DNA of 42,562 bases. Source: Chloroflexota bacterium (GTDB lineage Bacteria > Chloroflexota > Anaerolineae > Promineifilales > Promineifilaceae). The DNA lies in contig JAHEJP010000003.1 of the NCBI GenBank assembly GCA_024638855.1, positions 1 to 42,562 of the forward strand, written 5' to 3'. The position numbers were made by a program, and so were the translations under genes. Below are positions 19,962 through 21,392 of the stretch, piece by piece (the stretch's first letter is position 1; each line of letters starts with the position of its first letter). The notes below the pieces were generated by a model. It had not been told where the DNA came from. It made no database searches and saw only the letters and a program-made list of their open reading frames with translations.

Positions 19962-20068
19962 GTGTGTCATGTCTTTAAAAAATGAGAGAAACCTTTGGCA
20001 TCCTAAACGCTGATTGACAGCATCTGATGTCAAGATATAATGATCACCGTTCATTTCTCATTGATTCC

Positions 20069-20094
20069 GCGGTTTGAGTTATGGGCTCGACCGC
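20069..20094 (+). other. imperfect hairpin downstream of the cysteine desulfurase-like gene
   Basis: GCGGTTTGAG / CTCGACCGC with 7-nt loop TTATGGG; no clear T-tract. Confidence 0.35.
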
Positions 20095-20127
20095 ACTGCT
20101 ATCCTTTCTAGTAAGGAGGTGGTGTCT

Positions 20128-20181
20128 ATGGATAGTTATTTATCTAAAGGCACCGTAGCGCCACCTCCGCGAAAGCGGTAA
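20128..20181 (+). CDS. short leader ORF MDSYLSKGTVAPPPRKR upstream of homoserine dehydrogenase
   Basis: ATG preceded by AAGGAGGT (20113-20120), 8 nt between GGAGG and ATG; stop TAA at 20179-20181; not in the supplied ORF track because of its length. Confidence 0.5.
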   Translation: MDSYLSKGTVAPPPRKR

Positions 20182-20192
20182 CGCTACGGTGC
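20150..20192 (+). promoter_or_regulatory. nested RNA hairpin in the homoserine dehydrogenase leader
   Basis: Outer 11-bp stem GCACCGTAGCG (20150-20160)/CGCTACGGTGC (20182-20192); inner CCGC-GAAA-GCGG (20167-20178) with GNRA tetraloop. Confidence 0.65.
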
Positions 20193-20273
20193 ACACGCAG
20201 AGGCCCTGGTCCGTATGGATTGGGGTCTTTGTTTTACCAGGAAGGTTTCGGTTCTGACTAGGTCTGGAATGGC

Positions 20274-20320
20274 CTGTATTCAGGAGCCAATTTGCTGAAT
20301 ACAGTGAATTTCAATTTTTT
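20274..20320 (+). promoter_or_regulatory. perfect 10-bp hairpin just upstream of the homoserine dehydrogenase SD, followed by T6
   Basis: CTGTATTCAG (20274-20283) / CTGAATACAG (20295-20304), 11-nt loop; T6 at 20315-20320; AGGAGG SD at 20321-20326. Confidence 0.55.
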
Positions 20321-20330
20321 AGGAGGTCTC

Positions 20331-21392
20331 ATGAATCATATGCCGGTCGTCATATTTGGTGCGGGTGGGGTTGGACAGGCATTGTTTCGCCAGTTAGTGA
20401 TGACGAGGGAAGTGGTGGCGAGTCGAAATCGATGCCATTTTGACATCGTGGCCGTTTTGGACAGTAGCAGTTGGGTATGGCAGCCGGCCGGTTTATCTGA
20501 CGAACAATTGGATCAGATTATTAAGCAAAAGGAGACTGGCCAATCATTGGGTAGTGATAGACCGGAAATTCAGAAAATATTCGACATTCTATCTGAAGCA
20601 GGTTTAGTCGGCGGTCTTTTAGTCGATGTGACGGCCGCAGACGGTATGGAGCCTGTCATTGACCAAGCCTTGGAAAGTCAACATGGTGTGGTTTTGGCAA
20701 ACAAGAAGCCGCTAACTGGCCCTTGGGAGCATACTCGCCGCTATTACAATCATCCTTGTTTGCGATATGAATCAACTGTAGGTGGGGGGCAACCTGTCAT
20801 CAGTACCCTGCGTTATCTGCGGGATACTGGCGATCCGGTGATCAACATCGAAGGGCAGTTAAGCGGCACTTTGGGTTATATTTGTAGCCAACTCGATAGG
20901 GAAACGCCATTTTCCGAAGCACTGGCTGCAGCAAGAGCCAGGGGCTTCACAGAACCAGATCCGCGCGAGGATTTGGGGGGGCGTGATGTGATGCGGAAAA
21001 TCATGATATTGGGAAGATTGGCCGGTTGGCCGCTAGAAGAGGCCGATATTGAGGTAGAATCACTCTATCATCCGGCTCTCAGCCATCTATCAGTCAGCGA
21101 GTTTATGAACGCGTCTGTGGCTATGGATCCGTCCTTGGCGGACCGGGTACGGAGCGCAAAAGAAGAAGTGCAAGTGTTGCGCTATGTGGCTCAGGTTGAT
21201 GATAACGGCGGATCGGTAGGCTTGACGGGTATTCCAAAAGGTAGCCCTCTGGCCGATCTCAAATACATCAGCTTTCGAACCGGCCGGTATAAAGATGAAC
21301 CGATGATGATCGGGGGTAAAGGTGCAGGGGTTGAAATGACAGCCGCCGGCGTGCTAGGCGATATGATTGGCCTCAGCAGAGAGATGTTATGA
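20331..21392 (+). CDS. homoserine dehydrogenase family protein (no ACT domain)
   Basis: VVIFGAGGVGQALFRQL, VVLANKKPLTG, YESTVGGGQPVISTLRYL, EGQLSGTLGYI, GFTEPDPREDLGGRDVMRKIMILGR; start at 20331 preferred because AGGAGG is 4 nt upstream. Confidence 0.9.
   Translation: MNHMPVVIFGAGGVGQALFRQLVMTREVVASRNRCHFDIVAVLDSSSWVWQPAGLSDEQLDQIIKQKETGQSLGSDRPEIQKIFDILSEAGLVGGLLVDVTAADGMEPVIDQALESQHGVVLANKKPLTGPWEHTRRYYNHPCLRYESTVGGGQPVISTLRYLRDTGDPVINIEGQLSGTLGYICSQLDRETPFSEALAAARARGFTEPDPREDLGGRDVMRKIMILGRLAGWPLEEADIEVESLYHPALSHLSVSEFMNASVAMDPSLADRVRSAKEEVQVLRYVAQVDDNGGSVGLTGIPKGSPLADLKYISFRTGRYKDEPMMIGGKGAGVEMTAAGVLGDMIGLSREML

Follow-up and report, generated by a model that had tools for sequence, protein, structure and literature searches.

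A single-copy RNA element of Chloroflexota that may act as a stand-alone, ribosome-driven conformational switch

The 42,562-nt stretch of Chloroflexota DNA analyzed here (the window) carries, upstream of a homoserine dehydrogenase gene, an element that we read, with about even confidence, as an undescribed, stand-alone and conserved small RNA gene acting as a ribosome-driven conformational switch. More tentatively, it could be a phylum-wide Chloroflexota housekeeping RNA, present once in each genome, by which free ribosomes are sensed or buffered; the act of translation, and not its product, would be what is conserved, and a terminating ribosome would hold open the helix that otherwise shuts the Shine-Dalgarno sequence (SD) of the RNA. 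Few conserved RNAs occur in one copy throughout a phylum, and those that do tend to serve basic functions (6S RNA, tmRNA and SRP RNA). An RNA of this kind would be a compact and testable case of gating by ribosomes instead of by a metabolite, and would give a handle on translation control in Chloroflexota, a phylum with little genetics. The features of the window that are used below are the following:

20014–20041, + strand: predicted promoter TTGACA-16-TATAAT, matching the sigma-70 consensus at 12/12 positions, with transcription predicted to start near 20048.
20098–20104, + strand: 5' box GC(T/C)ATCC, with G in 85/86, C in 86/86 and A in 86/86 copies of alignment A2.
20113–20125, + strand: SD AAGGAGGT (from 20113) and segment 1, GGAGGTGGTGT (20115–20125), which pairs with 20158–20168.
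20128–20181, + strand: mini-ORF MDSYLSKGTVAPPPRKR, stop codon TAA at 20179–20181; an ORF of 15–20 codons is present in 84/86 copies.
20150–20160, + strand: 5' arm of hairpin P1, GCACCGTAGCG; 98.4% paired, with double-sided changes at 12/12 modelled pairs.
20158–20168, + strand: segment 2, the anti-SD inside the ORF, GCGCCACCTCC; its pairing with segment 1 (P0) was followed in 86 copies.
20182–20192, + strand: segment 3, the 3' arm of P1 after the stop codon, CGCTACGGTGC; its last base lies 13 nt past the first base of the stop codon.
20199–20236, + strand: terminator-like hairpin (AGAGGCCCTGGTCC gtat GGATTGGGGTCTTT) followed by the T-run GTTTT; 98.6% paired, with 12/12 pairs covarying.
20331–21392, + strand: homoserine dehydrogenase gene (PF00742, 5e-38), a neighbour of the element and not its obligate partner.

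The anatomy of the element is well supported by comparison of its copies. An earlier note on this DNA had described a 17-codon ORF with its SD, an anti-SD inside the ORF and a hairpin at 20113–20192, and all of these coordinates were verified. The outer stem (20150–20160/20182–20192) has 11 bp and encloses an inner CCGC-GAAA-GCGG, and GGAGGTGG (20115–20122) is the exact complement of CCACCTCC (20161–20168), with a wobble extension to 20125/20158. The first three bases of segment 2 also belong to the 5' arm of P1, and the pairings 1:2 and 2:3 are mutually exclusive at the shared bases. The promoter, the hairpin with its T-run at 20199–20236 and the independence of the element from the dehydrogenase gene were absent from that description. 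The region 20100–20260 folded with −69.8 kcal/mol (z = −5.7 against dinucleotide shuffles), and its minimum-energy and centroid structures corresponded to two competing states. This z-score, together with the conserved pairing, indicated that the structure at 20113–20192 was not due to chance.

The helices were followed in A2, an alignment of 86 copies that had been fitted to the P1 model, so that the slid controls carry the most weight. The pairs of P1 and of the terminator-like hairpin were formed in 98.5% of the cells and both-sided changes were observed at 24/24 pairs. Doubly changed cells amounted to 418, compared with 105 in the shuffled and 51–93 in the slid controls. In the copies of the family, the SD GGAGGTG, the GTAGC/GCTAC stem and the terminator hairpin were kept, and the peptide drifted. 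P0 was paired in 95.8% of the cells. Ribosome binding keeps the SD constant, GGAGGTG being invariant in 86/86 copies; the variation of P0 was therefore mostly one-sided, and the argument for this helix comes mainly from conserved complementarity and from one doubly changing pair. This pair, at SD position 30, was G-C in 48 copies and A-U in 32, and the SD base covaried with both of its alternative partners (G-C-G in 47 copies and A-T-A in 18). The pairings 1:2 and 2:3 were both kept under base change in single loci, as GATGC/GCATT/AATGC in L006 and as GGCGC/GCGCC/GCGC in L010.

The GC(T/C)ATCC box upstream of the SD was near-invariant throughout the class, and no consistent pairing partner was found for it across the copies. 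A helix between this box and the early codons (e.g., GGATAG) was considered and rejected: good pairing was obtained only with T at base 3, no compensation was seen when this base was C, and the overall helix length was near that of shuffled sequences.

Regarding the ends of the putative RNA, a promoter-like site of at least 9/12 was found upstream of 57/59 copies tested (11.5 expected in shuffles), and these sites lay in a similar place, mostly with a 17-nt spacing and an 11/12 match. The hairpin at 20199–20236 was not called as a terminator by a simple consensus scan of the window, so a terminator role is proposed from its structure and conservation. From its sequence, the element thus appears to have its own promoter and a terminator-like end, independent of its neighbours, as a trans-acting small RNA requires.

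The distribution of the element was analyzed with two covariance models, R1, built from the copies upstream of the dehydrogenase gene, and R2, built from 86 copies. R1 detected one full copy in 50/52 genomes of the family and gave no match in the other two (G004 and G014) or in four genomes of a sister family (the order-mates G035–G038). In the class, R1 matched 226/397 genomes and R2, at E ≤ 1e-7, found exactly one copy in each of 199/297 near-complete genomes and no match in about a third of the class genomes; most genomes were metagenome-assembled and related, and these counts are not independent events. In the phylum, 140/399 genomes gave a match at E ≤ 1e-4. When 40 Bacteroidota genomes were searched, the best score was 31 bits, and the two best matches (31 and 29 bits; in one case only a terminator, in the other an SD-like site with a terminator) lacked the features of the element. 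A score of about 31 bits was therefore taken as the noise level, and the phylum matches were counted as firm only above about 35 bits. Twenty copies from other classes were read, and the better ones had the same plan in a shifted register, for example with an SD GGTGATGCCC-ATG, the ORF segment GGGCATCACC and again GGTGATGCCC after the stop codon. The identity of segments 1 and 3 in these copies is what would be expected of two competitors for segment 2. Viral copies were not supported: two sequences in IMG/VR that fitted the pattern did not show the other features and did not match the model.

The surroundings of the element changed from family to family. The nearest downstream ORFs differed among 40 copies from other families, and about half of them were convergent. 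The convergent genes close behind the terminator that were confirmed by Pfam included a short-chain dehydrogenase, a member of the ornithine cyclodeaminase family, an HNH endonuclease, a phosphofructokinase, a glycosyltransferase, a LysM-YkuD protein and a histidine kinase, and the neighbours on the same strand ranged from AIR synthase-like proteins to TilS, HSP20 and radical SAM proteins. These shifting and often convergent neighbours, together with the retention of the element where the dehydrogenase gene is missing (see below), suggest that the element is a transcription unit of its own. A gene that looks AIR synthase-related (HypE-like) was downstream on the same strand in about 10 of the 40 copies (L167, L169, L173, L178, L179, L180, L186, L188, L192 and L199; confirmed by Pfam in L178 and L199), and this neighbourhood may be an old synteny.

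A clear pattern was also observed in the reading frame. The start codon was 27, 30, 33 or 36 nt away from P1, a distance divisible by three in 85/85 copies, and the frame was kept despite indels of −3, +3 and +6. In 84/85 copies the stop codon reached first in this frame was located 7–24 nt ahead of the last base of P1, compared with 3 and 0 copies for the other two frames; the early in-phase stops of the +1 frame are in part a consequence of the conserved GTAGC. The spacing from the stop codon to the end of the P1 arm was 13–14 nt in 52/85 copies and 11–17 nt in 75/85. A ribosome with a stop codon in its A site reaches about 12–13 nt downstream, and the spacing is close to this value. The peptide itself did not show purifying selection, the N/S-type (dN/dS-like) ratio being 1.08 for codons 2–8. 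A frame that is strictly kept and a peptide that is not fit selection on the act of translation, and point to translation itself as the signal. The earlier proposal of a translation-linked switch, in which sequestration of the SD alternates with the outer stem, was reinforced by this frame, by the conservation of both helices and by the SD base that covaries with both partners.

Folding energies were consistent with such an alternation. When segment 3 was left out of the fold, to represent the nascent state, the SD was fully paired, with a median free fraction of 0.001, and in the full core RNA the SD was about 0.51 free, the P1 state being the more stable in 72/85 copies. The energies of P0 and P1 were close in many copies, and some folded mainly as P0; the free fraction of the SD was 0.04 in the window and 0.00 in both L003 and L161. 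Thermodynamic folding of the truncated and full RNA thus predicts an SD that is hidden by a metastable hairpin. Once P1 has formed, its loop contains the anti-SD tail, and an H-type pseudoknot of this tail with the SD, as suggested in the earlier note, may be possible.

In the switch that we propose, an RNA of roughly 190 nt, predicted to run from near 20048 to 20236, would be transcribed, and in the nascent RNA segment 2 would pair with segment 1 and block the loading of ribosomes. Once segment 3 has been made, P1 would capture segment 2 and the SD would be largely freed; the anti-SD tail would be left in the P1 loop, where a pseudoknot contact with the SD may persist. A ribosome would then load at the near-perfect SD, translate the 15–20 codons and terminate about 13 nt short of the P1 end. 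From this position the terminating ribosome would cover the 3' arm of P1 and hold the RNA open. The state of the RNA would in this way reflect the supply of free ribosomes, or titrate them. It is this geometry that leads us to infer a ribosome-sensing role. The output could be the titration of 30S subunits by the near-perfect SD; alternatively, the CACCUCC loop, when exposed, might pair with other mRNAs.

An alternative that we consider rather unlikely is a trans-acting or dual-function small RNA, in which the anti-SD tail of the P1 loop (CACCUCC, a copy of the 3' end of 16S rRNA) would pair with the SDs of other mRNAs, and translation of the ORF would mask or expose this tail. A stand-alone gene with a strong promoter, a terminator-like end and a C-rich loop agrees with this explanation, and so does the conservation of the anti-SD in L189 and L204, where the reading frame relative to it is different. 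Nevertheless, the loop can be occupied by the SD of the same RNA, and a pure pairing RNA would need neither the frame nor the position of the stop codon. The same copies bear on the suggestion that a PPP motif senses EF-P or proline status, which was not supported: the CCTCC is kept as an anti-SD and the frame against it can differ, PPP occurred in only 6/86 peptides, and PP was also lost in some. Segment 2 has the class-wide sequence GCATCACCTCC, which contains AUCACCUCC, the usual 3' tail of 16S rRNA, and the adjacent CCGTAG resembles helix 45; segment 2 may mimic the 16S 3' end.

The codons of the mini-ORF suggested another explanation, which we regard as improbable, namely a codon-specific sensor in which early in-frame AGU serine codons would slow the ribosomes and set the fold. 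These codons were present in frame within codons 2–8 in 77/85 copies of A2 and off-frame in 2/85; in the copies from other classes the values were 17/20 in frame and 0/20 off-frame. Furthermore, AGU accounted for 19% of the codons, compared with 0.5% in the neighbouring genes. However, the bases responsible for this enrichment also produce many TAG/TAA triplets in another frame, and a constraint on the sequence and one on the codons are inseparable here.

The reading of the element as a leader of homoserine dehydrogenase, given in the earlier note, did not hold for an element that is single-copy and class-wide, has unrelated and often convergent neighbours, and persists in the congener G001 without the gene; a plausible but wrong amino-acid-leader annotation is thereby removed. 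An attenuator, in which translation of the leader would govern read-through into the dehydrogenase gene, appears more doubtful still than the codon sensor. The same element was often found upstream of relatives of the dehydrogenase in the genomes of the family, adjoining the gene in 20/25 genomes with both, and in L003, L009, L010 and L022 only about 15–30 nt separated the terminator from the dehydrogenase ATG, leaving no space for a second promoter, so that some read-through is needed in these loci. Against an attenuator, the element was apart from the gene in the other 5 genomes. In G001 (L161 and L141) the flanks were those of the window, a cysteine desulfurase-like gene on one side and a LysM gene on the other, and the dehydrogenase gene was missing between them, the element being kept. 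In several genomes of the family the element and the gene were on separate contigs, and the neighbours of the element, named by sequence inspection, were a Lon-like protease, a GyrI-like gene, argJ and others. Other families carried convergent or unrelated genes downstream, and neither PPP nor Thr was conserved. Additionally, no antiterminator was detected: by inspection of alignments A1 and A2, the 3' arm of P1 and the 5' arm of the terminator neither overlapped nor paired, and no sequence able to pair with the terminator in this way was found. Classical Thr/Met attenuation was rejected, as the one Thr codon occurred mainly within one family, with Ala elsewhere.

The element resembles the trp, thr and his leader-peptide attenuators in its short ORF, its exclusive helices 1:2 and 2:3 and the terminator hairpin after the ORF. 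In contrast to them, it has no common regulated downstream gene and no run of codons for the amino acid of a pathway, its terminator has no competing antiterminator, and its segment 1 is the SD itself. The leader-derived rnTrpL/peTrpL of Sinorhizobium (PMC7298713) is comparable in being a short, terminated RNA that contains a leader ORF and may act in trans. It originates, however, from a genuine trp attenuator whose leader peptide is conserved, whereas the element described here stands alone.

It is very unlikely that the element is a gene for a small peptide, functional or toxic, with an mRNA whose SD is masked while it is being made, as in type I toxin mRNAs. A nascent metastable hairpin that sequesters the SD is known from the aapA3/IsoA3 type I toxin mRNA (PMC6733600), and in the mRNAs of aapA3/IsoA3 and hok/Sok, as predicted for the element, the SD is masked in the growing transcript by a hairpin whose anti-SD belongs to the ORF. 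The kept ORF would also agree with a peptide gene, but the final fold of the element tends to free the SD, not to lock it, and the peptides, with the N/S ratio of 1.08 given above, were polar, did not contain a membrane-like stretch and differed in sequence in other classes; no antisense antitoxin was noticed. The element is therefore in part attenuator-like and in part like a type I toxin mRNA, and fails a defining feature of each. It also shares with the SAM-II and preQ1-II riboswitches and with the rpsO and alpha-operon r-protein sites an SD that could be a strand of an H-type pseudoknot, here with P1; unlike these, it has neither an aptamer nor a downstream coding gene, and the pairing partner lies inside the ORF that is controlled.

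A search against Rfam 15 (6S RNA, SRP RNA, tmRNA, riboswitches and others) gave no match at the curated cut-offs for the element of the window or for 20 related loci, and at loose thresholds only chance matches were obtained for the element of the window. No description was found in the openly searchable literature, outside subscription journals and preprints, on Chloroflexi small RNAs, leader peptides or anti-SD switches. A surrogate of 6S RNA was rejected, as a separate 6S RNA is present in the genome.

Finally, a perfect 10-bp inverted repeat, CTGTATTCAG...CTGAATACAG, was observed at 20274–20283/20295–20304, between the terminator and the homoserine dehydrogenase gene, and is possibly an operator or a hairpin for that gene.
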